A DNA stretch of 64,000 nucleotides from [Clostridium] saccharolyticum WM1 (lineage in GTDB: Bacteria; Bacillota; Clostridia; Lachnospirales; Lachnospiraceae): positions 3,868,501-3,932,500 of the forward strand of contig NC_014376.1 of the NCBI RefSeq assembly GCF_000144625.1, written 5' to 3'. A model generated the notes under the pieces. The model saw only the letters and a program-made list of their open reading frames with translations, was not told the origin of the DNA and made no database searches. Within the stretch, counting starts at the first letter, position 1; every line of letters starts with the position of its first letter. The translations under genes and the position numbers were made by a program. Below are positions 7,564 through 46,300 of this stretch, piece by piece.

Positions 7564-7580
7564 CGGCGCGCTCCTTTCTT

Positions 7581-7618: not shown

Positions 7619-7681
7619 AAAATTGGACTAAGATTAGCGAAAACCCTTTGATATAGCGGCTTTCACTTACTTAGTCCAATT
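7616..7681 (-). terminator. Inverted repeat at the end of the collagen-like gene: terminator or element border
   Basis: AATTGGACTAAG (7621-7632) is a perfect inverted copy of CTTAGTCCAATT (7670-7681), separated by 37 bp. On the minus strand the second arm is followed by a T-run (7616-7622), so it can act as a terminator for the collagen-like gene, whose last codons and stop (TGA, 7663-7665) lie in the first arm and loop. The long loop is unusual for a terminator. The repeat also sits exactly where the conjugative element meets the chromosome, so an end-associated inverted repeat is the alternative. Confidence 0.45.
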
Positions 7682-8421: not shown

Positions 8422-8489
8422 ATTTTGACACCCTTTCTGAAATCCTTACAGGAACATATTATAATATCAGAATTAACACGTTCCGGTTT

Positions 8490-10723: not shown

Positions 10724-10802
10724 CGGCTCCTTTAGACATTTTTAATTGCTATATTTACTATACTAAATTCAGTATATGCATCTTGTTGCTTATCTTGTGA
10801 AG

Positions 10803-10832
10803 AAGGGGGGCTGCATCACTGCATCCCCCCCT
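10803..10832 (-). terminator. Terminator of the pentose-phosphate aldolase operon
   Basis: A GC-rich hairpin (GGGGGG-C-TGCA, loop TCAC, TGCA-T-CCCCCC) lies 13 bp past the aldolase stop, followed on the minus strand by TTCTTC. The T-run is weak but the stem is very strong. It separates this operon from the glycosyltransferase operon downstream. Confidence 0.7.
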
Positions 10833-10844
10833 AAGTAATTGCTT

Positions 10845-11495: not shown

Positions 11496-11573
11496 TTTTA
11501 TCCTCCTAAAATCAGCCCTCTCCCCGGTCTTTATGGAACCTTTATGTCTGGCGGATCTTCGCAATCCGCAACC

Positions 11574-12623: not shown

Positions 12624-12681
12624 TACTTACTCCTTTCTACTACCGGTACACGCCTTCCTGTCAGCAAAAACGTCACAAAGG

Positions 12682-13917
12682 CTACATCTTTCCAATTACC
12701 TGATGTTCCATGATTTCATGAAACCGATCGGCAATTTCCTTTCCCTGCGAAAGCTTTTCCCTCTCCTTAATCAGGACAATCCCGGTTAAAATCAAGGCCC
12801 TTTCTATTTCAATTCGTTTTTCTGCATTTTCCACGCCGCTTACTTCCTCTACCTTCGAATCTCCCACAACGCGGCGGATTATTTCTGTACCTGCATATCC
12901 CAGGGTATCAGCCATTATCTTATGAATATAATGATCTTTAAAGCCGGATTTTCTGTACATATCAAATGTAACAATCTTATCATACTTTTTATCTATTTTA
13001 TCTCTTACCATATCGTAGCACTGGATGACCGTTTCTTCAATCCACTTTAAAAATTCGCTGTTTTCCGGTTCAAGATAAGCCCTGTTCGTCCATGCAAAGA
13101 ATAGATTGCCAATCACATTTCCAATGTCATAACCCATAGGACCATAAAATGCAAATTCCGGGTCAATGACTTTTATTCCTTCATTATTTATAAAGATGGA
13201 GCCTGAATGAAGATCCCCATGAATCAATGCCTGAGCATGGTTCATAAAGTCATCCCGTAATTTCCCCACCTCTCCTTTTAATTCCTCATCAGAATACAGG
13301 CAGGATTCCACAAACGTTTCATTTCCCGGTGTAACAATATTGCAGTTGCGTCCTTTCAAATCATAATAAGGCTGAGTAAAAACAAGATCCTCCGAGATAT
13401 CACACAATTCCACATTGGTAAACAATTTAACCCATTCCTTTTTTAACCCTCTCTCCATAACAAGGTCCGTTGTAGGAAGAAGTGTATCCACCAAAAATGA
13501 AGAAATATCTTCCGCCAGGCGGGGAAATGTTTTCCCTAAAAGCATTTCTTTGCGAAGATTTTTATAAGAAGAAATATCTTCCATGGACAAAGCACACATG
13601 ATTTCATCATACTGATAGACCCCGGGCACATAATCAGGTGCCAGCTTGCCTTGTATTTTCAATATTTCCGCTTCTATTTTATTACGGTGTAAATCCAGGG
13701 GACGGCCTGATGCCCTTAACACCTTATCCGCCTGCTTAATGACCAGGGAACGGCCTGTGGCTTTCTCAGATACCCGAAAAACATAATTAATATTGCCATC
13801 GCCAATCTCAGACACTGTAAGCTCTGCTTCCGGTCCGAAAAAACAGATAACCTCGGCTGCATACTTCTTAACGTCTTCAAGCTTCATCAAAAAATGTTCC
13901 GTATATTTTGTATTCAT
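12682..13917 (-). CDS. mtnK: S-methyl-5-thioribose kinase
   Basis: The 411-residue length is typical of MtnK. The choline-kinase-like fold is shown by IGDGNINYVFRV near 37, VIKQADK near 58, the catalytic loop LIHGDLHSGSIFIN near 233 and the metal-binding VIDPEFAFYGPMGYDIGN near 250. All are signature segments of MtnK. It phosphorylates methylthioribose (or 5-deoxyribose) at C1. AAGGAG precedes the ATG. The gene directly follows the transporter (18 bp), suggesting the free sugar is imported or recycled. The classical methionine-salvage enzymes MtnB, MtnW/X and MtnD are absent; a class II aldolase takes their place. Confidence 0.9.
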   Translation of the reverse strand: MNTKYTEHFLMKLEDVKKYAAEVICFFGPEAELTVSEIGDGNINYVFRVSEKATGRSLVIKQADKVLRASGRPLDLHRNKIEAEILKIQGKLAPDYVPGVYQYDEIMCALSMEDISSYKNLRKEMLLGKTFPRLAEDISSFLVDTLLPTTDLVMERGLKKEWVKLFTNVELCDISEDLVFTQPYYDLKGRNCNIVTPGNETFVESCLYSDEELKGEVGKLRDDFMNHAQALIHGDLHSGSIFINNEGIKVIDPEFAFYGPMGYDIGNVIGNLFFAWTNRAYLEPENSEFLKWIEETVIQCYDMVRDKIDKKYDKIVTFDMYRKSGFKDHYIHKIMADTLGYAGTEIIRRVVGDSKVEEVSGVENAEKRIEIERALILTGIVLIKEREKLSQGKEIADRFHEIMEHQVIGKM

Positions 13918-31079: not shown

Positions 31080-32612
31080 TCAATTACAGACGCACTGCTT
31101 AAACAAAGGCAATACCGCCTCAAAGGATTGCCTGCTGTATTCATATGCCGCTATTTTATCCACTCCGTTACCAACTTCATCCAGATCATAGGGATTCCGG
31201 AATGCTGCCATAACCATGGGGATCTTTAATTGTTCCAGTTCTTTAGCAAGGGAACTCTGTCCACGGTTTAAATGCCCATTATAGGTGCCGAGCACCAGAT
31301 TCGTATATCCCTTACTTTCTACCTTTTTCAGTATTTCGCCGATTTCACCGGGATCGGGATCTATGGAAAAAGAGTATGCATCTCCTCCAAACCTTTCCTG
31401 CATATATGCTGCAAACAGCAGATCATCCATGAATCGGCTGGAGGCCAAAGTGGAACGATCGGCGTAACAGCTTAAAAATACAGGATTATCTCCCAGCAGA
31501 TGGCAGTATCCCCTTTCCCGGTTTGTAAACCGTATGCTTTCGCGAAACAGCGACTTTACAAACTGCTCCGGTTCTTTTCCCGATTTTTTTCCCGTATCTG
31601 CATGGGGGGAAGCATACCTTTTCTTGTATGCAAGGATCCGCTCCACGGCATCGTCGATCCGGGACATGGGAATCTCGCCGGTTTCCACTGCTTTTTCTAT
31701 TTCCCTTGCCGCTTCCGCCGCAAGGCCTGCCGTATGGGAAATGAATATCAAATCAGCACCTGCCTTAATGGCCTTTTTCGCTCCGAAAGCAGTACCAAAA
31801 TATTCTTTGATGGCATTCATTTCCAGGCAATCCGAAATCACCAGTCCCTGAAAGCCCAGTTTTTTTCTCAGTATTCCCTGGATCATGGTTTCTGACATGG
31901 TGACCGGTAAATTTTCCTTTTCAATTCTTGGAAACAATATGTGAGCAAGAGTTACCGCCGGAACCCCCTTACGGAAAGCTTCTTTAAACGGAACCAGTTC
32001 CTCTTTCTCCAGTTCTTCATAGAATTTTCCGATACAGGGCAGGGAAAGATGGGAATCCACTGCCGTATCCCCATGTCCCGGAAAATGCTTTACCGAACAC
32101 ATGATTCCGGAATCTAAATATCCTTTCACCATTTCACAGCCGTATTCGGTAACTACGGTGCTGTCCGGACCAAAGCTTCGTACACCGATTACCGGATTAT
32201 GGGGATTGTTATTAATATCCAGAACCGGAGCCAGATTGAAATTGATCCCCAGCTCTCTCAATTCCTGCCCCGTAAGCAGTGCCGCCTCATATGCATTTTT
32301 CTTATCTCCGGTCTGTGCAAGAGCCATTGCTCCCGGTATGTTGACCGATTCTTCCGGAAGTCTTCTTACAACTCCGCCCTCCTGGTCGATGGTGATAAAA
32401 GCATATTCTCCGGTTTCTTCTTTCACCAGCCTTTGAATGGAATCACAAAGTGCCCTCAGCTGATCCCTGCTTTTAATATTATGGGAAAACAAAATAACGT
32501 TCCCCACTTTATGCTCTCTTACCAGCCCTGTCATTTCTTCCCTTAATTCCCCGGCTGGAAAACCTGCCACCATCATCTGTCCGATCTTCTGTTTTAATGT
32601 CATTTCCCCCAT
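31080..32612 (-). CDS. nagZ: Cytoplasmic beta-N-acetylglucosaminidase, GH3 (NagZ type)
   Basis: The protein has 510 residues from the ATG at 32612, which is preceded by AAAGGGGTG; the longer frame overlaps namZ and is rejected. GH3 NagZ marks are FITIDQEGGVVRRL near 71-84, the His/Asp dyad loop KHFPGHGDTAVDSHLSLP near 168, and the nucleophile segment VISDCLEMNAI near 250. A C-terminal domain extends beyond the catalytic barrel, as in Bacillus NagZ. No signal peptide is seen, unlike Bacillus NagZ, so it acts inside the cell. It removes GlcNAc from GlcNAc-MurNAc fragments. It is the last gene of the peptidoglycan-sugar operon. Confidence 0.93.
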   Translation of the reverse strand: MGEMTLKQKIGQMMVAGFPAGELREEMTGLVREHKVGNVILFSHNIKSRDQLRALCDSIQRLVKEETGEYAFITIDQEGGVVRRLPEESVNIPGAMALAQTGDKKNAYEAALLTGQELRELGINFNLAPVLDINNNPHNPVIGVRSFGPDSTVVTEYGCEMVKGYLDSGIMCSVKHFPGHGDTAVDSHLSLPCIGKFYEELEKEELVPFKEAFRKGVPAVTLAHILFPRIEKENLPVTMSETMIQGILRKKLGFQGLVISDCLEMNAIKEYFGTAFGAKKAIKAGADLIFISHTAGLAAEAAREIEKAVETGEIPMSRIDDAVERILAYKKRYASPHADTGKKSGKEPEQFVKSLFRESIRFTNRERGYCHLLGDNPVFLSCYADRSTLASSRFMDDLLFAAYMQERFGGDAYSFSIDPDPGEIGEILKKVESKGYTNLVLGTYNGHLNRGQSSLAKELEQLKIPMVMAAFRNPYDLDEVGNGVDKIAAYEYSRQSFEAVLPLFKQCVCN

Positions 32613-32628
32613 ACTCACGTCACCCCTT

Positions 32629-33771
32629 TCATCCATAAAGATGATATGCCTTTTTGCGTTCTGAAAATGCTTTTGAATCCCGTTCGAAACCAGCCAGCAA
32701 TTCTTCCTTTGAAGCTGTTTTCCCTGTAAGCTGGTCTGAGCCGAACAAAAGATCTTCCATTGGTCTGGTACTTCCCTCATAAGGATCAAGGAAAGCAAAG
32801 CGGTCTTCATAAATGGTCCTTATTGCATCAAGAAGCTCCAGACCGCAGACCGTGGACCGGAAGGCCCGGCAGTCCGTAACGTGGATATGGACTCCTTCGC
32901 AGGCTTCTCCCTGAAACTTTGAAAAAAATGGGGTGAAATAAGCGGTCGAAAACAACACGCCGGGAAGCTTTTTCTCTGTCATATATTTCACAAGCTTACC
33001 TGCATTTATAAATGGCGCACCGATTATTTCAAAAGGTGCTGCAGTTCCCCTTCCTTCCGAAATATTTGTTCCTTCAAAAAGACAGGCTCCTGCATACACC
33101 AGTGCAGTCTCATATCTTGGCATTGCCGGACTTGGCATGACCCACACATGGCCGGTATCCGGATGCATGGTATGCCTGCTTAAACCTTCACAGGGAATTA
33201 TTGTCAGCCGGCAGCCAAGGTTCTTCTCCGCATTTACCATAAGGGCCAGTTCTCCCACGGTTAACCCATAGCGCATACACAGAGGATATGCCCCTACAAA
33301 GCTTTCAAATCCGGGCTTTAAGCAGTTTCCCTCCACCAGATCTCCCAGAGGATTATAACGGTCCAGGATAATCAGCTCCTTATGAAACCTTGCGCACTCT
33401 TCCAGTGCATAGATCATCGTTGATATGTAGGTGTAATATCTGACCCCCAGATCCTGGATATCATATACAACGGCGTCTACCAGATCCAGCATTTCCCTGG
33501 TCAGCCTCTTTGAATTTCTCCGGTACAGGCTGTATACCGGCAATCCGGTATCCGGGTCCTTGTAATCCTCAACATCTCCGCCTGCTCCTATATTTCCCCT
33601 GACGCCGTGCTCCGGTCCAAACAGGGCCGTGAGCCGGAATTTTTTATGAAGTATGTCAATGGTAGAATTCAAATTCCTGTCAACGCCTGAAATAGAAGTG
33701 ATCAGACCCAGACGTTTCCCGTCAAAGACCTTATGCCAGCGGTCCACACAATCGATCCCGTTTTTTACCAT
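32629..33771 (-). CDS. namZ: Exo-beta-N-acetylmuramidase NamZ (DUF1343)
   Basis: The 380-residue protein matches the DUF1343 family: FGPEHGVRGNIGAG near 51, VYDIQDLGVRYYTYIST near 103, LDRYNPLGD near 136, RYGLTVGELA near 166, VMPSPAMPRYETAL near 210 and EGTNISEGRGTAAPFE near 233. NamZ (YbbC) of Bacillus removes terminal MurNAc from glycan chains and works with NagZ. Here no signal peptide is visible, so it should act on imported oligosaccharides. It lies 16 bp before the nagZ start. ATG follows CAGGAGG. Confidence 0.92.
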   Translation of the reverse strand: MVKNGIDCVDRWHKVFDGKRLGLITSISGVDRNLNSTIDILHKKFRLTALFGPEHGVRGNIGAGGDVEDYKDPDTGLPVYSLYRRNSKRLTREMLDLVDAVVYDIQDLGVRYYTYISTMIYALEECARFHKELIILDRYNPLGDLVEGNCLKPGFESFVGAYPLCMRYGLTVGELALMVNAEKNLGCRLTIIPCEGLSRHTMHPDTGHVWVMPSPAMPRYETALVYAGACLFEGTNISEGRGTAAPFEIIGAPFINAGKLVKYMTEKKLPGVLFSTAYFTPFFSKFQGEACEGVHIHVTDCRAFRSTVCGLELLDAIRTIYEDRFAFLDPYEGSTRPMEDLLFGSDQLTGKTASKEELLAGFERDSKAFSERKKAYHLYG

Positions 33772-33836
33772 AACCTGCCTCCTGCCGGATTAAACGGATA
33801 TGCCTGCATATCCAGTTAATCACTGCCATCCATACG

Positions 33837-33868
33837 ATTATCGGAAGTGGTTTTACACTTCCGATAAT
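33837..33868 (-). promoter_or_regulatory. Strong hairpin spanning the deacetylase stop codon inside the operon
   Basis: ATTATCGGAAGTG and its exact complement CACTTCCGATAAT form a 13-bp stem with a 6-nt loop; the deacetylase stop TAA lies at the junction of stem and loop. No T-run follows on the minus strand. It is followed by a smaller hairpin (GGATATG-CCTG-CATATCC, 33796-33813). Probably an mRNA processing or stability element that changes namZ-nagZ output relative to the genes upstream. Confidence 0.55.
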
Positions 33869-34557
33869 ATAACCTTTTTTTGTTCCTGATCCAAATCAAA
33901 AGCCTCCGCATATCCGGTTCTTGCCAGACAGCCGTTTACCCTCATGAGATGCTCATAATACTCTTTATAGGGAAAAGACGGGCTGTGCACGGCAAACCAA
34001 TGGGTGTCAATGGCCTTTTTCCATAGCTCAAATCCTTCTTTTGAAACTTCCAGGTAAATATATTTTTCAAAGCCAGCCGAATCTTCCCAGTTTTCCGCAT
34101 AATAGGGTCCTTTTGCGAAATGAGCACTGTATTTCCTCTCAAGCCCGGGAAGTCCTGCAAAAAACTGGGCATCCTTTACGATCCTGTGGGTTGTTTCATG
34201 GTCCTTATGCATGCTGTTCTTCCAATGGGTCAGCAATGCAGCGGGCCGGTATTGGCGGATTATATCGCAGAGCTGAAACCGCACCTCATCATTGTCCGGC
34301 AATTCTCCATCTGTGTAAGGCAATACCACAGCCTCCCCTCCCAGCATTTCGGCAAAGGAATGGGCTTCCTGTTCCTTTTGTATTCTGTATTCTTCCACCG
34401 GCATACCAGGCGGATTCCCTCTTTCCCCGCCGGTCAATGCTACGGTAACGATCTGACAGCCCTTTAATGCCATAGTCGCCAGGAATCCGCCGCTTGTCAG
34501 CTCTGCATCCCCCACATGACCGCCGATTGCCATGATGCACTTTCTTTCCCCGTTCAT
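33853..34557 (-). CDS. PIG-L/LmbE-family deacetylase-like protein with altered active-site motif
   Basis: The protein has 234 residues from the ATG at 34557, which overlaps the preceding stop as ATGA. PIG-L proteins are zinc N-deacetylases of GlcNAc-type sugars. The usual A-H-P-D-D-x-E box appears here as G-H-V-G-D-A-E near residue 13. The zinc ligands His and second Asp are kept, while the first Asp, the catalytic base, is Gly. The second metal box THWKNSMHKDHETTH near 139 is intact. Context predicts a substrate derived from GlcNAc or MurNAc. It may be catalytically altered rather than dead, since such variants form a subgroup in clostridia as far as I recall. Confidence 0.82.
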   Translation of the reverse strand: MNGERKCIMAIGGHVGDAELTSGGFLATMALKGCQIVTVALTGGERGNPPGMPVEEYRIQKEQEAHSFAEMLGGEAVVLPYTDGELPDNDEVRFQLCDIIRQYRPAALLTHWKNSMHKDHETTHRIVKDAQFFAGLPGLERKYSAHFAKGPYYAENWEDSAGFEKYIYLEVSKEGFELWKKAIDTHWFAVHSPSFPYKEYYEHLMRVNGCLARTGYAEAFDLDQEQKKVILSEV

Positions 34558-35534
34558 CGGTCCTTCCATTCCTTCCTCATATCCGCCCAGGTCCTTACAA
34601 TACGGAATCCTGCGGCTTCATAAATATTTCTTGCGGGATTATTTTCTCCGGTAAAAAGACTCATAAAATCTGCACCCATTTCCTTCAGACTTGTGCATAG
34701 CCTGCAAAACAGGGCCGTTGATATCTTTTTCCCCCGGTAATCCGGATCCACGCCGATTCCGCAAAAAAATCCCCTCCCGCTCTTTTCCACATCCAAAGGC
34801 CCTGTAAAGCCGATCACTTTGCCATTGTGTGCTGCGATCAGAATGGGACGGCTGTGTTCTCCCTTTGCCGTTTCTCCCAGAATATCTCTTTCCCACAAAG
34901 GATTATGGAACTTATGTATCATTTCCTCCATACCGTAATGCCTGCCAGAATCATAGACTTCTATTGTAATGCCCTCTTTTTCCAGTTCTTCTATGAGGTC
35001 TGCCGCAAAATCCGGCACCAGATAATCATTAAGGTCCAGATAATAGCTGTTCTGCATGGCAAAATCACGGTACTTACAATTTTTAAAGAAAAGATAGGCA
35101 TTGCTCCCCACATCCACTCCCGGAGCATTGGGATGATCCGCCTTCTTTTTCCCTGGAATATACCAGGAAAACATCATGGGATTAAAGAAAACAATTTCGA
35201 TCCTTGAAACTTTGCTTTCCTTCCGAAGTCTGTCTTCCAGACAGGCGAGCATTGCTTTTCCGATTCCCCGGCCCTGCATTTCCTTTTTTACAACAATCAC
35301 GGACAGATAAGCCCGGTCCTCACCGTTTAAGAAGCAGCCGGAAGCAAATCCCCAGCCATGCTCCTCTAAAATGGTGATCTTATGTACCTCATCTGCCTGG
35401 TTTTCCATAAAAAATCCGGAAAAGGCACTCTGGTTTTCCAATGGCCGGAACAATACTTCTTTTGCCTTGACCGCATCTTCAAACAATTCAAAAGCGATTC
35501 CTGCATTCTCTTGGTTCAAATCCAAAAATTTCAT
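34554..35534 (-). CDS. glmA: Two-domain GNAT acetyltransferase, GlmA-like (glucosamine/glucosaminide N-acetyltransferase candidate)
   Basis: The 326-residue protein has two GNAT domains. The first acetyl-CoA loop is VKKEMQGRGIGKAMLACL near 84; the second is VDPDYRGKKISTALFCRL near 266, followed by NPARNIYEAAGF. Clostridium acetobutylicum GlmA, a tandem-GNAT enzyme that N-acetylates glucosamine and glucosaminides and is linked to murK, is the closest described model I know. It would re-acetylate de-N-acetylated wall sugars so that MurK and NagZ can use them. It overlaps the GH4 gene and the deacetylase gene by 4 bp each. The GlmA assignment rests on architecture and context. Confidence 0.7.
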   Translation of the reverse strand: MKFLDLNQENAGIAFELFEDAVKAKEVLFRPLENQSAFSGFFMENQADEVHKITILEEHGWGFASGCFLNGEDRAYLSVIVVKKEMQGRGIGKAMLACLEDRLRKESKVSRIEIVFFNPMMFSWYIPGKKKADHPNAPGVDVGSNAYLFFKNCKYRDFAMQNSYYLDLNDYLVPDFAADLIEELEKEGITIEVYDSGRHYGMEEMIHKFHNPLWERDILGETAKGEHSRPILIAAHNGKVIGFTGPLDVEKSGRGFFCGIGVDPDYRGKKISTALFCRLCTSLKEMGADFMSLFTGENNPARNIYEAAGFRIVRTWADMRKEWKDR

Positions 35535-36856
35535 TCCGACCGCTCCTTATCCTCAAAAAACTGAGGCAGATATTCCTTATGTGCTTCCAACAGCTCAGAA
35601 AGCACGGCCTTTGCTTCTTTCTGGGAGCCAACCAGGGGATTGATCATTAGGGCCAGCAGGGCCTTCTGCCGGCTTCCTGTTACGGCCGCCTGGCAGCCTG
35701 CAATTTCAAAGGATTTGATCTGCTGCAAAAGACCATTGACCGTCCACGGCAGTTCCACGCCATTTACCGGAACCGGTCCTTCCTTTGTGATCCTGCAGCT
35801 TACTTCCACGATCTCATCGTCCCTAAAATTTTTAATGGCACCTCTGTTTACGGTGTTTACCACCTGAATATCTCCCTTGTCATTATAAATGGAATGGATC
35901 AGATTGCATGCCGAATCACTATAATGGGCACCGCCCCGCTGTGACAGCAATTCCGGTTTTTCATTCAATTCCGGATCCTGATACAGCTCAAACAGCTTTT
36001 TTTCCACCTGTTCCACAAGCTCGGCTCTGGTCTCATGTTTTTCATACTTTTCCAGGGCTTCTTCCAGATAATCTTTTGCCATATAGTAATATCTGTGATA
36101 GGAGCATGGCAGCACTCCAAGCTCTTTTACAAAATCATTGTCCCAGGTGACTGCCTTGATATTCTTCACAGTGCCGCCTTCGCCCCAATGGCTGATCACA
36201 TCTTCCGTCATGTCCTTTCCATCCGCTTCCACTCTGGTCACGTAAACCATATGATTTAAGCCGCCCATGGTAATTTTCACCTCTTCCATGGACTTTCCAA
36301 GCTGATCCGCCACTGCTTTATGCATGCCGTAAGGTATGTTGCACAGTCCGATGAACCTCCGAAAGCTGCTGTATCGGTTCAATCCCTCCATGACCATGCC
36401 CACCGGGTTCGTAAAATTAATCAGCCATGCTTCCGGGCACAGCTCCTCCATGTCTTTGCAGATATCCAACAGGACCGGTATGGTTCTCATCCCTTTGAAC
36501 AAACCTCCAGCCCCATTGGTTTCCTGGCCAAGGAGTCCGTGCTTTAAGGGGATTCTTTCGTCCTTCACTCTGGCCTGGAGCAGTCCGACCCGCAGCTGGG
36601 TAACTACAAAATCAGCTCCGGAAAGAGCCTTTCTCCGGTCCAGGGTTGTATGGATTTCCATTGGAACTCCTGCTTTTTTTACCATGCGCTTTGCAAATTC
36701 AGCTACAATCCCTAACTTCTCCTGGCCCTCCGGGATGTCCACCAGCCATAGTTCCTCCACAGGCAATGATTCGTACCGTTTTAAAAATCCGTCCACCAGC
36801 TCCGGTGTGTAACTGGACCCTCCTCCGATTGCCACGATCTTCACACCTTTTTTCAT
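35531..36856 (-). CDS. NAD-dependent glycosidase of family GH4 (6-phospho-beta-glucosidase-like)
   Basis: The 441-residue GH4 protein has the NAD-binding N-terminus VAIGGGSSYTPELVDGF near 8-24, GQETNGAGG near 112, NFTNPVG near 147, the metal-binding Cys in GLCNIPYG near 170, and GLNHM near 200. Most relatives hydrolyse 6-phospho-beta-glucosides by an oxidation-elimination route using NAD+ and Mn2+. In this operon the likely substrate is a phosphorylated amino-sugar disaccharide such as GlcNAc-MurNAc 6-phosphate, an activity not previously tied to GH4 as far as I know. ATGA overlaps link it to the ROK kinase before and the GNAT gene after. Confidence 0.88.
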   Translation of the reverse strand: MKKGVKIVAIGGGSSYTPELVDGFLKRYESLPVEELWLVDIPEGQEKLGIVAEFAKRMVKKAGVPMEIHTTLDRRKALSGADFVVTQLRVGLLQARVKDERIPLKHGLLGQETNGAGGLFKGMRTIPVLLDICKDMEELCPEAWLINFTNPVGMVMEGLNRYSSFRRFIGLCNIPYGMHKAVADQLGKSMEEVKITMGGLNHMVYVTRVEADGKDMTEDVISHWGEGGTVKNIKAVTWDNDFVKELGVLPCSYHRYYYMAKDYLEEALEKYEKHETRAELVEQVEKKLFELYQDPELNEKPELLSQRGGAHYSDSACNLIHSIYNDKGDIQVVNTVNRGAIKNFRDDEIVEVSCRITKEGPVPVNGVELPWTVNGLLQQIKSFEIAGCQAAVTGSRQKALLALMINPLVGSQKEAKAVLSELLEAHKEYLPQFFEDKERSE

Positions 36857-37734
36857 GACTGAACGCCTCCTTCTTTGCTTTGCAGCAATAAATACAGGGC
36901 TCCGATTCTCCCTGCCATGTTTCCCTGTTCACAGGCCTCTATGGCCGTATACGGTTCCAGATGGGGATACAGGGTATATACCGCTTCTTTCATATCCCTT
37001 ATAAATATCTCATTTTCACTGATTCCCCCGCCGATTAAAAGGATCTGGGGATCCACCGTAACTGCAAAGTTACCGATTACCATTGCACCCTTGTATAGCC
37101 ATTCCCGGTATATCCGGTTAATATCCGGGTGGTCTAAATGGCTGAAAATATACGATCCGTCCACTTCCCTGCCAAGGATTTCCGATCCTTTTCTCACCAG
37201 AAGAGAGGTGGCTCCTGCCCCTTCTGCCGCCGGCTTTCCGTCCGCCTCCCGAAGGCCGACTCCGGTAAAGCCCACCTCACCGGATTTAAAGTGGCTGCCC
37301 CGGTGCAATTTCCGGTTTATGATGATGGCGCCGCCGATCCCGGTCCCAAAGGTGACCATACATATATCCTCATAGCCCCTTCCTGCTCCCCGGACCATTT
37401 CTCCCAATGCGGCACAATTGCTGTCATTTTCAAGTGCTACGGGAATCGGATATTTCCTGTTTATCTCATCGTTTAAACGATATGCCCTGAAATTGGCTCC
37501 AACACTGAAATCCGTATTTTCTCCTGTCACCGGATGGATAAAGCCGCCCATGCAGATAGCAATGCCGCTTATCTGATCCACATAGGTTTCCACGATCTCC
37601 ATGAACTGCCGGAGAAACCTGGCCGGCTGTTTTTCCGTTGGTGCGCTTCCTTCATGAAGGACCCGGTATTCCGGGTCCATAAGACTGTACTTTATGTAAG
37701 TACCGCCTATATCAATTCCCAGGTATTGTTCCAT
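36853..37734 (-). CDS. ROK-family sugar kinase
   Basis: The 293-residue protein has the ROK ATP-binding start YLGIDIGGTYIKYSLMD near 4-20, the substrate loop ENDSNCAALGE near 100, GTGIGGAIIINRKLHRGSHFKSGEVG near 131-156 and the C-terminal IGGGIS near 239. The CxCGxxGCxE zinc motif of many ROK kinases is missing. It probably phosphorylates GlcNAc, ManNAc or a glucosamine-like product of the pathway. It overlaps the end of murK by 23 bp and GH4 by 4 bp. Two kinases in one operon suggests division of labour between two sugars. Confidence 0.85.
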   Translation of the reverse strand: MEQYLGIDIGGTYIKYSLMDPEYRVLHEGSAPTEKQPARFLRQFMEIVETYVDQISGIAICMGGFIHPVTGENTDFSVGANFRAYRLNDEINRKYPIPVALENDSNCAALGEMVRGAGRGYEDICMVTFGTGIGGAIIINRKLHRGSHFKSGEVGFTGVGLREADGKPAAEGAGATSLLVRKGSEILGREVDGSYIFSHLDHPDINRIYREWLYKGAMVIGNFAVTVDPQILLIGGGISENEIFIRDMKEAVYTLYPHLEPYTAIEACEQGNMAGRIGALYLLLQSKEGGVQS

Positions 37735-38659
37735 ATCCGTTCCTTTCTTCCATCTCCCGTAATATGATCCTGACAGCTCCCTGGGCGGCCTCTCCCCTCA
37801 TCTTCATAATTTCCAGCAGTGGAAATCTTTTTTGAGCCTTTTCACGGAACAGGTGGTATATTTCTTTATTTTTCATCAATACGCTTCCGCTCACCACCAG
37901 AGAGACCGGATAATCAAAATGAATCAGTACGGCTCCGGCCAGCTCCGCCAGGTCCCCGGCACAATGGTCCAAAATCTCAATGGAAGCCTCATCCTTTTCC
38001 CGGATCCCTTCTTCCAGCAGAGGGGCCAGGGCAGCGATCTCTTTTTTGCTTCTTCCAGTCTGATACAGCCAGGTGATTAAATCTTCCACGGATTCCGCAT
38101 TAAGGAAGCGGAATGCTTTTTCCTTCAATAAGGTCCGGCCTGCTCTGCCGTCTTCTGCCCTCACCACTGCTTTTAATATATCTCTTCCAATGGCATAGGC
38201 ACTTCCGGCGTCATCGATGATGTGACCGTAGCCGCCGGCCCGGAACTTAACCCCGGACTCATGGATCCCGCAGCAGATGGAACCGGTCCCGGCAATTAAA
38301 ATAACGCCTTCCGGTTCCTCCAGAGCGCCTGCCAGAGCTGTTTCATGGTCTCCCACCAGCCTGATGACTCCCTGCATCCCCTGTTCTTTCAATTTCCCGG
38401 TCAGCAGCTCTGCCGTATCCCGGTTGCTGATTCCGGCGGCTCCAATGCAGATCCCTTTGCAGTCCCTCAGATTCAGACCTGATTGTTCCAGTTCTTTCTT
38501 TAAGTCCGTCAAAGTATGTTCTACCGATTCCCGGGACTGTCCATTGATGTTTAAAGGCCCTAACCGGAATTTTTTTATAAGGCCGCCATGAAGTCCTGCT
38601 GCCATTACGGTGGTGGCGGTCCCGCCTCCATCCATTCCTATCACAAATGGTTCTTTCAA
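37712..38659 (-). CDS. murK: BadF/BadG-family amino-sugar kinase, MurK-type (MurNAc/GlcNAc kinase)
   Basis: The 315-residue protein starts at TTG (38657-38659), preceded by GGAGG. ASKHA-fold motifs are IGMDGGGTATTVMAAG near 7, IGAAGISNRD near 72, ILIAGTGSICCGI near 119 and a C-terminal VVSGSVLMKN near 256. Family members include eukaryotic GlcNAc kinase and the C. acetobutylicum MurK, which phosphorylates MurNAc and GlcNAc at O6. The ABC importer delivers unphosphorylated sugar, so a MurNAc kinase is needed before MurQ; this gene is the best candidate. It follows the permease genes and overlaps the ROK kinase. Confidence 0.82.
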   Translation of the reverse strand: MKEPFVIGMDGGGTATTVMAAGLHGGLIKKFRLGPLNINGQSRESVEHTLTDLKKELEQSGLNLRDCKGICIGAAGISNRDTAELLTGKLKEQGMQGVIRLVGDHETALAGALEEPEGVILIAGTGSICCGIHESGVKFRAGGYGHIIDDAGSAYAIGRDILKAVVRAEDGRAGRTLLKEKAFRFLNAESVEDLITWLYQTGRSKKEIAALAPLLEEGIREKDEASIEILDHCAGDLAELAGAVLIHFDYPVSLVVSGSVLMKNKEIYHLFREKAQKRFPLLEIMKMRGEAAQGAVRIILREMEERNGYGTIPGN

Positions 38660-38684
38660 CTTATTTCCTCCATTCTTCCTTCTC

Positions 38685-39548
38685 TTATCCCTTTACCGCG
38701 CCCACCGTTACTCCTTCCAGAAAATATTTCTGCAAGGCAAAGAACAGAATAAACATGGGCAATGCCGAGATGGTTGCGCCTGCCATCATAGGGGAAAAGT
38801 AAGTGGTATTTGCAAAACTGAAATTTTTAAGCCCCACCTGGATGGTCTGCATCTGCTCGTTGTTGCATACCAGAAACGGCCAGAAAAAGGTATTCCAGTT
38901 TCCCATAAAAGTCATGATTGCCATAACGGATAAAATTGTTTTTGAAATAGGCATGACGATTTTTATCAGGATCTGAAACTGATTGCAGCCTTCTGTTCTT
39001 GCCGCTTCCAAAATGGAGGTGGGAAGGGATGAAAAGAACTGCTTCGCCATAAACACATTGTAGCAGGTGACCAGGGACGGCACGATCAATGCGGTATAAG
39101 TATCTGTCAGCTTCAGTACATTGGCTACCAGGATATAAAGAGGGACCTGTGTGACCTGATAGGGTACCATCATCGCAAACAGCAGCAGGAAAAATAATAT
39201 TTTACTTCCGGGAAATCTTATTTTTGCAAACGCATACCCTGCCATTCCGGCAAAAACCACATTGCTTAATGTGACGGTGCTTGCAACGATCATGGAATTT
39301 ACAATCCACCGGAACGAGCTTTTGCTGAATCCAAAAAAGAATTTATAGGAATCCAATGTATAATATTTGGGGATCAGAGTGTAACTGGCTGCCCCTATCT
39401 CATTTGGCGCCCCAAAGGAAGAGATAATCATGTAATAAATCGGAAACAGGGTCAGGAGACCTAAGATAAGCAGGATGGCTGTCATTATCACAGTTCTGAA
39501 CACTAATTTATATTTTTGATCGTTTCCATATTGTCTGAATAAACCCAT
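38685..39548 (-). CDS. ABC sugar permease, MalG-type
   Basis: The 287-residue membrane protein has six predicted helices and the EAA loop of CUT1 permeases (ILEAARTEGCNQFQILIKIVMPISKTIL near 178-205), which docks the ATPase. It forms the channel with the preceding permease. There is no ATPase gene in the operon, so it probably uses a shared MsmX-type ATPase encoded elsewhere, as is common for CUT1 systems in Firmicutes. Substrate is inferred to be MurNAc-GlcNAc oligosaccharides or free amino sugars. Confidence 0.92.
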   Translation of the reverse strand: MGLFRQYGNDQKYKLVFRTVIMTAILLILGLLTLFPIYYMIISSFGAPNEIGAASYTLIPKYYTLDSYKFFFGFSKSSFRWIVNSMIVASTVTLSNVVFAGMAGYAFAKIRFPGSKILFFLLLFAMMVPYQVTQVPLYILVANVLKLTDTYTALIVPSLVTCYNVFMAKQFFSSLPTSILEAARTEGCNQFQILIKIVMPISKTILSVMAIMTFMGNWNTFFWPFLVCNNEQMQTIQVGLKNFSFANTTYFSPMMAGATISALPMFILFFALQKYFLEGVTVGAVKG

Positions 39549-39558
39549 ACCAGCCCTC

Positions 39559-40458
39559 CTAGTACTCTACGTCTGCAGCCATTACCTTAAACTGGAAAAC
39601 TGCAAAGACTGCGATGATTCCTGCCAATAATAATGCCTGGGCACATGCCTCTCCATAATTAAAATATTTGAAGGCATTGTTAAATATCAATAATCCCACC
39701 ATGGTAGTGGCATTATCCGGCCCGCCCCCTGTCATTAAAAACGCCGTCTGAAATGTCTGAAACGCATTGATCACTCCTGTTATGGTGAGAAAAACGGTGG
39801 TCGGCTTGACCATAGGCCATACAACGTACTTGATTCTCTGTAAAAAAGTCGCTCCATCAATATTGGCAACCTCATAATAGGTGGGATCAATCCCAAGCAA
39901 TGCGGCCACATAAATAATAACGGTAGGACCGATGCCTGAGAATATCGTCATGATGATCAGCGACAGCATGGCTGTTTGAGAACTGCCAAGCCAGTTCTGG
40001 TTCTGGATTCCAAATGACCGGATCACGGAATTTAACAGACCGCTCGGCAGAGGATCAAATATCCATTTCCACACAAAGGAGAGGGCTACTCCCGATGCAA
40101 TCCCGGGCAGATAAAATACTGCTTTAAAAAATGACTGGCTCCTTTTCTTAAAGGGGACTAACAGAATAGAGATGATGAACGCCACGAGGATGGAGACGGG
40201 TACCGTTACGGCCGTATACACCACAGTGTTCCAGATGGATTTAAAGAAAAGTCCGTTCTTTAATGTGTTACTGTAATTGGCAAATCCCACAAACTCTGTT
40301 TTTAAAGGCTTATAAGTTTGAAAGCTTACAATCGCTGCCTGTACAACCGGATATAACGTAAAAATAATAAATGACAAAATGGGCACGAGCACGAAGACAT
40401 ACCCCCATTTGGCGTCATTGTTTAATCGTTTTTTTTTCTTTGCTGCCTGCATACCCAT
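39559..40458 (-). CDS. ABC sugar permease, MalF-type
   Basis: The protein has 299 residues from the ATG at 40458, preceded by AAGGGAGAGGG; a 37-codon upstream in-frame stretch lacks a ribosome site. Six helices and the EAA-type loop YYEVANIDGATFLQRIKYVVWPMVKP near 190 identify a CUT1 permease. It pairs with the MalG-type permease 10 bp downstream and the lipoprotein encoded upstream (117 bp spacing). Part of the peptidoglycan-sugar importer by context. Confidence 0.92.
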   Translation of the reverse strand: MGMQAAKKKKRLNNDAKWGYVFVLVPILSFIIFTLYPVVQAAIVSFQTYKPLKTEFVGFANYSNTLKNGLFFKSIWNTVVYTAVTVPVSILVAFIISILLVPFKKRSQSFFKAVFYLPGIASGVALSFVWKWIFDPLPSGLLNSVIRSFGIQNQNWLGSSQTAMLSLIIMTIFSGIGPTVIIYVAALLGIDPTYYEVANIDGATFLQRIKYVVWPMVKPTTVFLTITGVINAFQTFQTAFLMTGGGPDNATTMVGLLIFNNAFKYFNYGEACAQALLLAGIIAVFAVFQFKVMAADVEY

Positions 40459-40575
40459 TACCCTCTCCCTTCTCTCTAAAAACACAATGATCCTGCGGAT
40501 AAGAAATGGGCATTGGCACCTGTTACGATTACCAATGCCCGAAAAATCATGAGATTCTATGAAACTCATTTTTCA

Positions 40576-41991
40576 TTAATCCATGACACAGCCTTCCTCG
40601 CCAAAGGCTTCCACAGCAGCCTTTTTAATGGCTTCATGCATCTCCTCCGGAGTGATTTCTCCAGCTAACAAACCCTGGAATTTTGGCAGAATAACCTCTT
40701 CCTCAATTTTTATGGCCTTTGCCCCTAAATCAGCCGGAATGTCAGGTCTGGCTTCCGCAACCTGGGTAGCAAGATTTTTAACTGCTTTTGTATTGTTCTC
40801 ATTTTTGCCTTCCATGGGCGGAAGGGCTGCAAATGCTTCCTCTCCGGATTTGCATATGGGGCTGATATAAAGTTCCTGACAGGTTTCTGCCGCTCTTTTT
40901 CCGCTTGCCAGGAAATAGGCGGCCTTTGCCACGTTCTTTAAATGCTCCGGACTTGGTTCATCTTTTCCGCGGAAGCACACATATCCGTCTACCGCACCCT
41001 GCGCCTGCTGGATATTTCCCTGGAACGTAGGAACCGGCAATACAATGTATTCCACCTCCTGGCTTCCTTCTACTGCACTTCCGTCCTTTGCAGCCAGCTT
41101 TTTATTATTATCGGTAGCAGACTTTTCAAAAACCGACAGCCCCTTGCCGGTGATCATGGTCTGCCCGGTTAAGAACATGTTCCATCGTTTTCCCGCATCA
41201 ACGGAGCTTAGTTCTTTCGGCATGGAGCCATCATCGATTAAGGCCCTGATGTCTTTTAAGAACGGAACCAGTTGACTGCTGGTGTATGTATACTTCAAAT
41301 CCTTATTAAAGGCGGAAGGCATACCTGCATTTTTAACAAAAATCGAAAAATAATCCTTTGCCGCTACGCCTGAGCAGGCAAAAACAAAGCCGTACCGGGA
41401 ATAGCTGTCTCCGTCTTTTACAACGCCCTTTTTGACGGCTTCCCGGAATTCATCATAGGTCCAGCCATTTTCCTGGATTCCCTTCCAGTCAATTCCTGCT
41501 TCCTCCAGCATGGCCTTGTTTCCGCCGATCGCCTGTACCTCCACATAGGCCGGGAATCCATAAAGCCCGTCGCCGTTTTTGAAATAGTTTATAATATCCG
41601 CATTGTAATCTTCTATCATTTCCTTATCCGCATATTGGGAAATGTCTACCAGCATTTCCGTGTCCAGATATTTCGTGACTCCGTTAGAACCGATGAATGC
41701 GATATCAGGCGGAGATCCTGCGTTTACCTGAACATCCAGCTTTTGCGTAATATCTTCCCAGCTTGCCGTTGTGATCTGCAGCTCCATTTCGGGATTGGCT
41801 TCGTTGAATTCCTTTGCATATTCCACCAGTTTATCCTGATAGGATGCAGAAACAGGCGGAAGCAATGCCTTGACAATGTCTTTTCCATTGCTCTGCTGTA
41901 CCGCAGTGCCCTTTGCGGCAGTTTGGCAGCCAGCCAGTGTACTGGCCATGATGGCTGCTGTCAATAGTACGGATAGTTTTCTTTTTTTCAT
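40576..41991 (-). CDS. ABC sugar-binding lipoprotein of the peptidoglycan-sugar importer
   Basis: The 471-residue protein has a lipoprotein signal (KKRKLSVLLTAAIMASTLAGC, with Cys 22 in the lipobox LAGC). The mature part is an extracellular-binding-protein family 1 fold with NAGSPPDIAFIG near 92 and YGFPAYVEVQAIGGNKAML near 119. It captures the oligosaccharide outside the membrane and hands it to the two permeases. It lies 19 bp after murQ. MurNAc-containing substrate is inferred from the operon, since family 1 binding proteins are mostly named by context. Confidence 0.92.
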   Translation of the reverse strand: MKKRKLSVLLTAAIMASTLAGCQTAAKGTAVQQSNGKDIVKALLPPVSASYQDKLVEYAKEFNEANPEMELQITTASWEDITQKLDVQVNAGSPPDIAFIGSNGVTKYLDTEMLVDISQYADKEMIEDYNADIINYFKNGDGLYGFPAYVEVQAIGGNKAMLEEAGIDWKGIQENGWTYDEFREAVKKGVVKDGDSYSRYGFVFACSGVAAKDYFSIFVKNAGMPSAFNKDLKYTYTSSQLVPFLKDIRALIDDGSMPKELSSVDAGKRWNMFLTGQTMITGKGLSVFEKSATDNNKKLAAKDGSAVEGSQEVEYIVLPVPTFQGNIQQAQGAVDGYVCFRGKDEPSPEHLKNVAKAAYFLASGKRAAETCQELYISPICKSGEEAFAALPPMEGKNENNTKAVKNLATQVAEARPDIPADLGAKAIKIEEEVILPKFQGLLAGEITPEEMHEAIKKAAVEAFGEEGCVMD

Positions 41992-42010
41992 GTTTTCCCC
42001 TCCATTATTT

Positions 42011-42910
42011 TTATATCTGGTCTATCGCATAACGCACATGTCCACGTGCCTTTGCCAGCTTCTCCCTCGCCTCCTGTGCCCTGCATCCCGATAAAATGGA
42101 TACAATCGCTGTCTTTGCATGGCCGTCTGCACAAGCCAGTGCTTCCTTGGCCTCATTCCGGCTGCATCCCGTGGCCTCCATTACGATGTTCTCCGCCCTT
42201 TTTATCAGCTTTGTATTTGTCTGTACCACATCCACCATCAGGTTCTGGTATGCTTTCCCTACACCCACCATGGCAGCAGTGGATATCATATTACAGACCA
42301 TCTTTTCTGCCGTACCTGCCTTCAGCCTGGTAGAACCGGTCAGGATTTCCGGGCCCACCACCAGTTCAACGGTGATCTCCGCTGCTTCCGCCATAGCGGA
42401 ACCGTTGTTGCATACAATGGCCCCCGTCCTGCATCCGGTTTTTCCTGCATACCGCAGTCCGCCTAATACATAAGGAGTCCTGCCGCTTGCGGCAATGCCG
42501 ATGACCACATCATCTGCTGTCAGATGAATGTTTCTTAAATCTTCCTCTCCCAGGGTTTCGCTGTCTTCCGCACCTTCCACGGCTTTTATAAAAGCACCTT
42601 CTCCTCCGGCAATCAGCCCTATCACTTTTCCCGGTTCCACGCCAAATGTCGGCGGACATTCTGCCGCATCTAAGAGTCCCAGCCTTCCGCTTGTACCGGC
42701 TCCCATATAGATCAGCCGGCCGGTTCCTTCCAGACTTTTCGTGCACCATTCTACGATCCTGGCGATTTTATCAAGCTGGGATTTTACTGCCTGAATTACC
42801 TCTTTGTCTTCTTCATTCATAATACGGATTAAATCCAGAGGAAGCATTTCATCAAGATTCATGGTTTTTGGATTTCTGGCTTCCGTGACCATATTAGACA
42901 GATCAATCAT
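42011..42910 (-). CDS. murQ: N-acetylmuramic acid 6-phosphate etherase
   Basis: The 299-residue SIS-fold protein has VTEARNPKTMNLDEM near 8, GRLIYMGAGTSGRLGLLDAAECPPTFG near 63 with the catalytic Glu, ASGRTPYVLGGL near 131 and GPEILTGSTRLKAGTAEKM near 187, all characteristic of MurQ. It removes the lactyl ether from MurNAc 6-phosphate, giving GlcNAc 6-phosphate and D-lactate. It is first in the operon, behind a consensus sigma-A promoter. A MurR/RpiR regulator is not adjacent. Confidence 0.96.
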   Translation of the reverse strand: MIDLSNMVTEARNPKTMNLDEMLPLDLIRIMNEEDKEVIQAVKSQLDKIARIVEWCTKSLEGTGRLIYMGAGTSGRLGLLDAAECPPTFGVEPGKVIGLIAGGEGAFIKAVEGAEDSETLGEEDLRNIHLTADDVVIGIAASGRTPYVLGGLRYAGKTGCRTGAIVCNNGSAMAEAAEITVELVVGPEILTGSTRLKAGTAEKMVCNMISTAAMVGVGKAYQNLMVDVVQTNTKLIKRAENIVMEATGCSRNEAKEALACADGHAKTAIVSILSGCRAQEAREKLAKARGHVRYAIDQI

Positions 42911-43007: not shown

Positions 43008-43036
43008 ATTATATATTTATGAACTCTTTTTGTCAA
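43008..43036 (-). promoter_or_regulatory. Consensus sigma-A promoter of the murQ operon
   Basis: On the minus strand TTGACA (43031-43036), a 17-bp spacer and TATAAT (43008-43013) match the consensus perfectly. So strong a promoter implies a repressor. The start point would be about 43000, about 90 nt before murQ. Confidence 0.85.
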
Positions 43037-43329: not shown

Positions 43330-46300
43330 TTACCTGATTTGCACTACTCCATCTACGACCCACTCTCCATTTGCATTGACAGCATAACCGTCCGGGGTAA
43401 TGGTCCCCTTAAGCATAGCGCCATATTTGTATTGCGTTGTCTGAAGATCCGGATTGAGATAATAGCATTTTCCGTTAATCCATTTCCAGCCCATAGCCAT
43501 AGCACCGTATGAGCCATCATGATTTTCGCTCATGTAGTACCAGCTGCCGTCTCCATCCAGGTACCAGCCGGTAATCATATATCCTTCTGTGTCGAAACGG
43601 TACCATGACACCTGACCTTGATAGGAACACTGATACCATTCATTTTTTGCGTATGTTCCATCTTTCTTAACCGCCTGCCAGCCTCTGGTATTCTGCTTCC
43701 ATTCTACGTTGGGATTGGTTTCACGGGACTTTGTAACCGTTCTGCCGGAATCTTCCTCTCTGTCTTTGCTGCCGGGACGGTCTGGTTTTTCGGGAATTTC
43801 TGGTTTTTCAGGAATTTCCGGCTTTTCAGGAATCTCTGGCTTTTCGGGGATGTTTGGTTCTTCTGCAAGTTTCACATCGTCTCGGTCACGAACTCGTATA
43901 CGGGGAACAGAATCCTCAGAATCACCTATGACAGTTCTGGATGAAAGTCCTACCGCAGACATATAGGCACCGATTTTCAGATCCTTTATTACCTTATCCT
44001 TCGTAATATATCCGTCGATAAAGATTCTTGCAGGTTTCCCTGACTGATCCTGGAGCATAATCGTTTCTACCAGATTATTCGGTGCATCAACGGAAATAAC
44101 CTTGCCGCTTACCGTGACCAGACTGCCCAGGTTTTTGCCCTCATAAGCTTCTTGGGTGGTTTCCTTAACAGGCTCTGGAAGTTCCTTTCTATCCGCATCA
44201 ATTACCATAAGTTTTTCTACTGCCAGCTGTCTCTCTCCCTGATAAGAAGAAGTTTTTCCAAACACTCTGATGGTCTGGCCCGTTCTTATATCTCCGGATA
44301 CGGGAAATAGATTAATTCCGCCGGTTTGATCCTGCACATAGATGCTATCAAAGAAAGCAGTATCTTTATCATAACCTGAAGCATTGGATGTAGCGATTCC
44401 TTCGATCACAAACCGCTCGCCCTCACCGGCATCCTGAACTTCCTTAATAGGCGTAATCTGTAACTGATTCGTCTTATCTAATAAATTTGCCATTATCTGG
44501 TAGTTGCTGTAATCATTGGTGGCCGCACTGTCAAAGGTCAGCTGGAAATTGCTCATGGTTGAACAGCCCGATAAATAGAGTGTAGATGCTTCACCATCAC
44601 TGACATAAAGTTCCTGGGTAGCTGCCAATACAAAACGCCCATCTAATTTCGTCAATGCGTCTCCAGATAATCCTACGCCGTCTTTATCCAGACTTTTCGT
44701 ATCTGCCGGTGCATATACAAGAGGTGCCGCTCCTGACGGAAGCATGGCGCTGTCGCTGACTGGATTTCCATTTTCATCGATTGCGTAAATGTCCGCATTG
44801 CCGTAGGTGTTGAATTTAAGACCTGCCTCCACTCCGGCCATATATGGGTTCAAATGATTATAATCAGTGCCCAGGATACCAATCACTCTGCCGTCATTGC
44901 TGGCAGCACTCTGCAACTCATCGTCTGCAAATCGGAATGCACTTCCAAGCGTTTCCAGAATCCTGTTCTGCTGAGCCGACATATGATCCCCTGCCTTGGA
45001 CTTATCACCTTTGAAACCATCGTATGCCTCATAGGTATCGCTCCAGGAACAGACCATAATCGTCTTTCCGCCCTTTTTAGCAAAAGCTCTGACCGCATCA
45101 AGCTCTGCCTCTGTATAGTTCTTATAATCCTCCCGCAGCTTCGTGCCATCGCGTCTGGAAGGTGCATTTAACAAAAGTCCAACGTACTTGTCGTCCCTTA
45201 AGGCGGCTATCAGTTCCTCACTAGTATTAAGCGTGACCATCCTGATATTGTAATCCCCCGCTAAGGCAGTGAAATTCCCCATACTGTCCTTATAATTTCC
45301 ATTCACATATTCATTATAATGACTGGCATCTATCCCAAAATATTTCATCTTCGAACTGTCACGTACGTCAATTTCCAAAGTAAAGCTGAATGATTTACGA
45401 TCGCCTTCCAGTTCCATTTGGGCGGTGGCTTCTATTACATTCACTCCTACCTTGTCAAGTTTGAACTCTTTGTTTACCGTATAAGTACCAAAGGACTTCA
45501 AATTCACATTTAAATCTTCACTTTCAAGCACCTTGTCGCCAGTTTTAAATGTCAGCCTGGTAAGTGTGGCATCTGATTCTTCGTTATTGAACGCTGTGAC
45601 TGTAAACTTCACCGGATCGCCTGTCACTGGGACGTCTGTATTACAAGTGAAGGAAGAGATACCAGCTTTTGCAGCGGAACCATACCACACAGGAGCCGTT
45701 ACGGCGATATTTTTATCCGCCTGAGTCACTCGGATATAATAATATCCTTTCTTCGCAGGAAGCTCAAATGTGAACTCTCCACTATTTCCGGTACCTTCTT
45801 TCTTTCCTGCGACTGCGCCGCCATTTGTTACTACTTCTACACTTTTGATGACATCTGACGGATCAGGGTCATCGACGCTTACAGAAATATTCAGCGTTTT
45901 CACATCATCTGACACGTCCAGGATACTTCCCATAGGTTCATCATTTAAAGTATACATGATATTTAAGTTTTTATCTTCTGTCGCGTATACATGCATATCT
46001 TTCAGCGCATTTAAAATCCCTGTCTCTGACAAATCATCTGTGAGGACGACTGTCCTGGCCGTATTGGCATTGCCCCAACGCCCTTTATGGTTATCCTGAT
46101 TATTGGAAGGTGCTAAATGCCAGCCCTTATCCAATGCTTTCGTATATTCACTGTAGCTTGGGAAATATCCGCCCGAACCGATAGAGCCTTCACCGTTGCC
46201 TACTTCCACCAAGACCATTTTGGCATCTCTTGCCGGTGTATAGTATGCAAAATCTGCAAAAGTACCAAATGTCTTGCCCGGGTGGTTAAACTGTGAAAGA

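Follow-up and report, generated by a model that had tools for sequence, protein, structure and literature searches.

What does an operon that joins cell-wall sugar enzymes to a sugar importer of the ATP-binding cassette (ABC) type do for [Clostridium] saccharolyticum WM1 (Lachnospiraceae, order Lachnospirales)? The question is raised by eleven genes on the minus strand, running from 42910 to 31080 in a window of 64,000 nt (contig NC_014376.1, positions 3,868,501 to 3,932,500 of the forward strand). We consider it likely that together they serve the catabolism of peptidoglycan saccharides, which would be imported through the ABC system, cut in the cytoplasm by NamZ and NagZ and passed on through MurK and MurQ. 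The eleven co-oriented genes listed in an initial annotation, from murQ to NagZ, were all recovered in the same order and strand, and each was matched to its family. In the direction of transcription, the promoter and the genes are:

43008..43036, minus strand: promoter of sigma-70 type upstream of murQ (perfect TTGACA, 17 nt, TATAAT)
42011..42910, minus strand: murQ, predicted N-acetylmuramic acid (MurNAc) 6-phosphate etherase (TIGR00274)
40576..41991, minus strand: CUT1 solute-binding lipoprotein (SBP_bac_1; LAGC lipobox)
39559..40569, likely start 40458, minus strand: CUT1 permease 1 (BPD_transp_1; nearest model UgpA)
38685..39548, minus strand: CUT1 permease 2 (BPD_transp_1; nearest model UgpE)
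37712..38659, minus strand: MurK, predicted BadF-type kinase of MurNAc and N-acetylglucosamine (GlcNAc) (TTG start; best PDB relative 8zo3)
36853..37734, minus strand: ROK sugar kinase (ROK Pfam; without CxCGxxGC)
35531..36856, minus strand: GH4 glycosidase, predicted 6-phospho-beta-glycosidase type (CNIP; nearest 1s6y and 5c3m)
34554..35534, minus strand: tandem GNAT acetyltransferase (two Acetyltransf_1 stretches)
33853..34569, minus strand: deacetylase of PIG-L type (PIG-L Pfam; HVGD instead of HPDD)
32629..33771, minus strand: NamZ, predicted exo-beta-N-acetylmuramidase (NamZ_N and NamZ_C; no evident export signal)
31080..32612, minus strand: NagZ, predicted GH3 beta-N-acetylglucosaminidase (nearest 6k5j; motif KHFPGHGDTAVDSH; no evident export signal)

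The spacing of the eleven genes is operon-like. Genes in the middle overlap by 23, 4, 4 and 16 bp, so that of the several 4-bp overlaps claimed earlier two hold (rok/gh4 and gh4/gnat) and the other two are longer. The remaining gaps measure 6 to 81 bp, with a maximum of 117 bp if permease 1 begins at 40458 rather than 40569, as it probably does judging from the ribosome-binding site and relatives. NagZ probably starts at the ATG at 32612, which is preceded by AAGGGGTGA. The protein then has 510 aa and begins as it does in most relatives; a start at 32810 was dropped, as its overlap with namZ would be 182 bp. The murQ promoter was the sole 12/12 match among 23 promoter-like sites between 30600 and 43400 (18.7 expected from shuffles, sd 4.5).

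The salvage enzymes carry the argument. MurQ exceeds the NCBIfam equivalog cut-off of TIGR00274 (393.5 vs 302 bits) and the best PDB relative of MurK was deposited as a MurNAc/GlcNAc kinase (8zo3, E 1.2e-51). Families able to free MurNAc (NamZ) and GlcNAc (GH3 NagZ) are both encoded. NamZ matches its two Pfam domains; its nearest solved relative, 4k05, was deposited as a conserved hypothetical exported protein, whereas the operon protein itself has no evident signal. It is 89% identical to its counterpart in Lacrimispora celerecrescens (Lachnospiraceae), the only locus confirmed in a scan of named genomes with NamZ as the single protein. NagZ lies barely above the cut-off of the beta-N-acetylhexosaminidase model PRK05337 (210.2 vs 207 bits) and is nearest to the GH3 beta-N-acetylglucosaminidase 6k5j (E 1.3e-101).

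These assignments suggest a route of three steps. Saccharides containing MurNAc or GlcNAc, released from the cell's own walls or those of its neighbours, would be caught by the lipoprotein and pass through the CUT1 permeases, with energy from an ATPase presumably encoded elsewhere (the whole genome has nine TOBE_2 matches). Inside the cell NamZ would take off MurNAc and NagZ GlcNAc from the non-reducing ends; here the families are matched, and location and activity are predicted. MurK would then phosphorylate both sugars and MurQ would yield GlcNAc-6-phosphate, to be continued by a NagA encoded elsewhere (one gene above cut-off in the genome).

Cytoplasmic cutting is the step that sets this scheme apart from secreted salvage, and we compared it across 25 genomes of Lacrimispora, the genus of this bacterium, and 295 genomes of the order, the present one included (G labels denote genomes and L labels loci). 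To judge export signals we took, over the N-terminal 50 residues, the highest mean hydrophobicity of any 12-residue stretch, a simple measure rather than a trained signal-peptide predictor. By these means no hydrophobic N-terminal segment of the kind expected for export as in Bacillus subtilis was found in NamZ (0.81) or NagZ (1.05), against 2.1 for the binding lipoprotein, which agrees with the earlier statement that both enzymes lack signal peptides. Among NamZ rows from relatives, 34/38 stay at or below 1.36 and are thus signal-less, and 4/38 have a strong hydrophobic start (L038, L046, L050 and L057, of 508, 839, 453 and 870 aa), which separates an exported from a non-exported type. Outside these 38 rows stand G196, where the N-terminus lies beyond the stretch examined, and G120, where NamZ belongs to a long protein of exported appearance with its best score as NagZ (L037). 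AmiE and NagZ of B. subtilis act extracellularly (PMC5061867), and by this precedent NamZ and NagZ might work outside after non-classical release or lysis, with the importer taking up monosaccharides. As neither operon enzyme has an evident signal while a few NamZ relatives plainly do, we regard this as very improbable.

The importer itself fits the proposed uptake. Its binding protein matches the SBP_bac_1 family and has a LAGC lipobox at residues 19-22 (motif scan), and the nearest relatives of the importer adjoin MurQ in three other genomes. When at most five candidates per genome were scored, a binding-protein match at E<=1e-40 was found in 4/295 genomes, the present one included, and all four encode NamZ. 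None of the 11 operon gene products is an EIIBC protein, so uptake of the MurP type, by a phosphotransferase system (PTS), has no component in the operon. The initial annotation had stated that no PTS is present; this stands for the operon and fails for the genome, which has 19 PTS EIIC genes and two further MurQ loci linked to a PTS. The first (L145, G000:C1:4071000-4077000, frames 1599-5884) encodes a regulator like RpiR/MurR, MurQ (409.9 bits), a PTS EIIBC and MupG (MupG_N, 217 bits). As its EIIBC falls under the cut-offs of both the MurNAc-PTS model (280 bits, cut-off 516) and the sucrose model (304 bits, cut-off 559), with the latter scoring higher, it is MurP by context only. The second (L190, G000:C1:1300000-1319900, 7539-12941) has a third MurQ above cut-off with mannose-type EIIC, EIID and EIIB, besides an RpiR regulator and a protein of the beta-lactamase family; it may be one more system for taking up MurNAc, through a PTS of a different class. 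The genome thus holds three MurQ loci, the operon running parallel to two PTS-linked ones, and is therefore not that of a bacterium which uses an importer instead of a PTS. Import, internal cutting and phosphorylation by MurK, as first suggested, remain the best reading of the operon, alongside these two loci.

The distribution of the genes in relatives points the same way. In Lacrimispora, NamZ occurs in 7/25 genomes (MupG_N in 24/25), and all seven copies agree in gene order from the binding protein through to NagZ. Across the order, NamZ was found in 36 genomes, MurQ above its cut-off in 51 and both in 31 (hypergeometric 2.3e-23), that is, MurQ in 31/36 NamZ genomes vs 20/259 others. The five NamZ genomes without MurQ are G059, G120 and G278, with exported-looking long forms, G196, and G124, which is 83% complete. 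Relatives of the operon's PIG-L protein (E<=1e-25) occur in 13/295 genomes, 11 of them with NamZ (1.3e-9) and 12 with MurQ (2.5e-9); NamZ is missing from G091 and G094, and MurQ from G094, where a partial match reaches 297.7 bits vs the cut-off of 302. The overlap of PIG-L and NamZ covers five families (f1, f2, f5, f8 and f22). The GH4 protein at 600 bits or more is present in 10/295 genomes, nine with NamZ (2.1e-8) and nine with MurQ (6.4e-7). As the genomes are related and not independent, the hypergeometric values overstate the case. Near NamZ (37 loci, L031-L067) there are murQ in at least 18, murK in at least 20, nagZ in at least 15, CUT1 permeases in at least 11, the GH4 clade in at least two and PIG-L in at least four; these are lower bounds because genes beyond a contig end, in pruned frames or under a score floor escaped the count, as the MurQ of G209 in L031 did. 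AnmK also occurs in two related clusters (L048 and L128).

Some observations weigh against assigning the operon to MurNAc saccharides. The MurNAc-containing ligand of the binding protein is putative. murQ heads the operon in only 2/7 Lacrimispora copies (the window and G301) and in the other five the binding-protein gene comes first; murQ is therefore ruled out as an obligatory member, and those five copies would depend on MurQ encoded elsewhere. In a lactyl-pocket comparison based on the Tannerella forsythia kinase structure (PMC10465942), from which the present sequences are too distant for the pocket residues to be mapped, the residue preceding the catalytic Asp of MurK is Gly and that of 8zo3 is Asn; the position is variable and, because of the Asn in 8zo3, does not discriminate.

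The least explained part of the operon is the block of GH4, ROK, PIG-L and GNAT genes, which the initial annotation had treated as accessories. GH4 is predicted to be of the 6-phospho-beta-glycosidase type, as its nearest PDB entries are the 6-phospho-beta-glucosidases 1s6y (E 2e-173) and 5c3m (E 5e-173), far ahead of alpha-glycosidases. It carries CNIP at residue 172, within the pattern CN[IV]P that we take as the signature of 6-phospho-glycosidases in GH4. We defined its clade as matches of at least 600 bits (10 genomes), a line set after the scores were seen (613 above, 584 below). Within the fetched region, murQ was found in 8/10 clade genomes; of the two others, G254 has PIG-L, GNAT and ROK instead, and the contig of G124 ends beside a kinase. 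Among weaker matches, none of 20 examined (of 32 listed; flanks of 12 to 20 kb, some of them shorter where a contig ended) has murQ, NamZ or NagZ in the region. In a GH4 tree of 36 rows, the 15 labelled as recycling-linked, a label given from neighbours and score that takes in G254 and G124, fall on one side of a branch with an SH-aLRT of 94, below the mark of 95. A BadF or ROK kinase gene adjoins GH4 in 8/10 clade genomes (not in G197 and G060).

These features, with the deacetylase and acetyltransferase alongside, suggest a second branch, in which PIG-L would deacetylate the non-reducing GlcNAc, a kinase would phosphorylate C6 and GH4 would cut glucosamine- or GlcNAc-6-phosphate from MurNAc, in parallel to ChbG and ChbF. 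GNAT would re-acetylate, making fragments that end in glucosamine (GlcN) substrates of NagZ. GH4 enzymes oxidize the sugar at C3 and hence need a free 3-OH on the sugar released, so GlcN or GlcNAc can be released and MurNAc cannot. By analogy with chitobiose use, this branch is a tentative suggestion that we would not yet prefer to its denial.

The other proteins of the block give mixed indications. The nearest PDB relatives of ROK are the NanK 5nck and the beta-glucoside kinase 4htl, and a motif scan found no CxCGxxGC. PIG-L is nearest to a diacetylchitobiose deacetylase (E 6e-10), and its His18, Asp21 and HKDH (121-124), which we take to be zinc-site residues, are invariant in 11/11 aligned sequences. 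GNAT has a single weak solved relative (E 0.00088), and its tandem layout makes it GlmA-like by analogy only. Homologue searches with PIG-L and GNAT gave 697 and 503 matches, the best 120 of each carrying generic names only. The two genes are direct neighbours in 12/13 genomes, with two genes between them in G254; the GNAT proteins of G204 and G233 are no more than remote relatives (34 and 35 bits).

Against the second branch, several points must be set. Gly20 of PIG-L, again in 11/11 aligned sequences, stands at the place of the first Asp in HPDD, which we presume to be the general base of PIG-L deacetylases and which is present in four aligned PDB chains (three of diacetylchitobiose deacetylase types and BshB1). 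PIG-L may therefore be no ordinary deacetylase; its base may be a different residue or its function a different one, and the branch stays a hypothesis. The G091 copy has two in-frame stops, and a deacetylase adjoining an acetyltransferase could be futile. The GNAT-PIG-L pair stands without a recycling gene in the fetched regions of G008, G053 and G094 (all family f8), a starch-synthase-like gene preceding it in G094; the contig of G081 is too short to judge. A distant GH4 lies beside NamZ in G019 (L063), outside the recycling-linked clade, and is perhaps an independent recruitment. A BadF kinase is likewise found next to a GH4 where no recycling genes are around (L174-L176, L178 and L179); this pairing is therefore general, which fits the phospho-glycosidase reading.

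Such pairing also bears on whether the four genes belong to a different pathway altogether, for beta-glycosides or modified amino sugars, with only the importer and the promoter in common. A ROK protein near beta-glucoside kinase and a GH4 near 6-phospho-beta-glucosidase would make a plausible beta-glucoside route, and PIG-L without its usual base would be less of a difficulty. We hold this unlikely, though worth keeping in view, as the GH4 clade falls on one side of its branch (at the support given above) with murQ in eight of its genomes from two families, and PIG-L tracks NamZ and MurQ even when unlinked.

The nearest solved relatives of PIG-L raise another alternative, namely that disaccharides from chitin or chitosan, with mixed saccharides of amino sugars, come first and MurNAc is a side substrate; PIG-L, the kinase and GH4 would then process (GlcNAc)2, NagZ would be a general GH3 beta-N-acetylglucosaminidase and murQ a recent addition. 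Besides the rarity of murQ at the operon head and the closeness of NagZ to a GH3 beta-N-acetylglucosaminidase, there is a precedent in Streptomyces coelicolor and Paenibacillus, where chitobiose is imported intact by an ABC system and cut by an intracellular GH3 enzyme, as proposed for the operon; MurQ, MurK and NamZ are unmentioned in the available parts of that source (PMC12791066). A chitin-first role nevertheless appears improbable to us. The seven Lacrimispora genomes with GH4 at least 90% identical are the same seven that have NamZ, a muramidase family, MurK is closest to a MurNAc/GlcNAc kinase, and in relatives the GH4, PIG-L and importer types accompany murQ, with AnmK in the two clusters mentioned.

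Two side observations concern this block. The PIG-L clade (33853-34569) carries HxGD for HPDD, so that an enzyme which seems conserved has a changed catalytic motif. In G132, G071, G140 and G091 (L119-L122) the module is accompanied by murQ and genes of oligopeptide-importer size, with no CUT1 system; the cluster comprises murQ, an oligopeptide-type ABC importer, GNAT, PIG-L, SBP_bac_5, GH4, a BadF kinase and an FAD oxidoreductase (families checked in L120 only). It looks like a different importer for apparently the same substrate. An SBP_bac_5 protein is also present in G254 and G177.

Known systems share parts of this arrangement. We take ybbC of B. subtilis to be namZ. The murQ-murR-murP-amiE-nagZ-ybbC cluster of that species serves MurNAc recovery with PTS uptake by MurP and, like the operon, encodes MurQ, NagZ and the YbbC protein together; unlike in B. 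subtilis, where AmiE and NagZ act outside, the operon enzymes lack evident export signals, the importer is of CUT1 type and a kinase replaces PTS phosphorylation (PMC5061867). The mupG-murQ-murP-murR genes of Staphylococcus aureus import the disaccharide whole and cut it inside, as proposed here, but there PTS phosphorylation precedes the MupG cut (PMC6262408); the operon has neither, and the same gene set stands at L145 of this genome. A 2026 review places NagZ of Gram-positive bacteria either outside or in the cytoplasm, and describes uptake by ABC transporters such as DppBCDF-YkfD and extracellular NagZ and NamZ (PMC13204101).

In Clostridium acetobutylicum, MurK is said to occur with NagZ and GlmA, and import followed by intracellular processing has reportedly been proposed. 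To our knowledge NamZ, GH4 and PIG-L are not part of that system. MurK of C. acetobutylicum acts on both MurNAc and GlcNAc (PMC5790795, PMC10465942), and we liken the operon MurK to it by kinase type. ChbG belongs to the YdjC family and not to PIG-L. In Escherichia coli the GH4 enzyme ChbF cleaves glucosamine-6-phosphate glycosides after deacetylation by ChbG, a logic shared with the proposed branch, whereas PTS uptake and the chitobiose substrate differ (PMC12791066, PMC9402603). A GH4 of Hoskinsella is 6-phospho-alpha-glucosidase-like with unknown substrate, in a bacterium that grows strongly on MurNAc (PMC13096917).

The initial annotation called the route distinct and possibly undescribed. 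Its core is usual in the order, where NamZ is mostly signal-less and mostly found with MurQ, and so is not peculiar to this genome; it is known in kind and common among relatives. We found no description of signal-less NamZ combined with the GH4 clade: our literature search, with most subscription journals outside its scope, returned in the sources available no account of a CUT1 importer with cytoplasmic NamZ, nor of GH4 in peptidoglycan recycling.

Downstream, the operon is followed by adenosine deaminase and RelA/SpoT genes. On its upstream side the window encodes, at 43330-49131, a protein of 1933 aa with matches to Lamin Tail, DUF5689 and choline-binding repeats, a relative of which lies upstream of the operon in the other Lacrimispora copies too.

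For the biology of these bacteria, the three loci mean that MurQ can be present three times in a single clostridial genome, each time with a different uptake system. For the GH4 and PIG-L clades we found no assigned function, and their substrates are predictable. It is conceivable, if on balance doubtful, that the GH4 clade is dedicated to peptidoglycan in certain Lachnospiraceae and related members of the order, where an ATP-dependent kinase would phosphorylate disaccharides ending in GlcN or GlcNAc, GH4 would cut the beta-1,4 bond between the 6-phosphorylated GlcN or GlcNAc and MurNAc, and the PIG-L/GNAT pair would set N-acetylation and so choose between the NagZ and GH4 branches. If true, this would be a branch of peptidoglycan recycling that relies on an oxidative-elimination glycosidase, joining an ABC importer to ChbF-like chemistry. 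To know which bacteria feed on pieces of cell wall, and by what means, bears on mutual wall recycling in communities.

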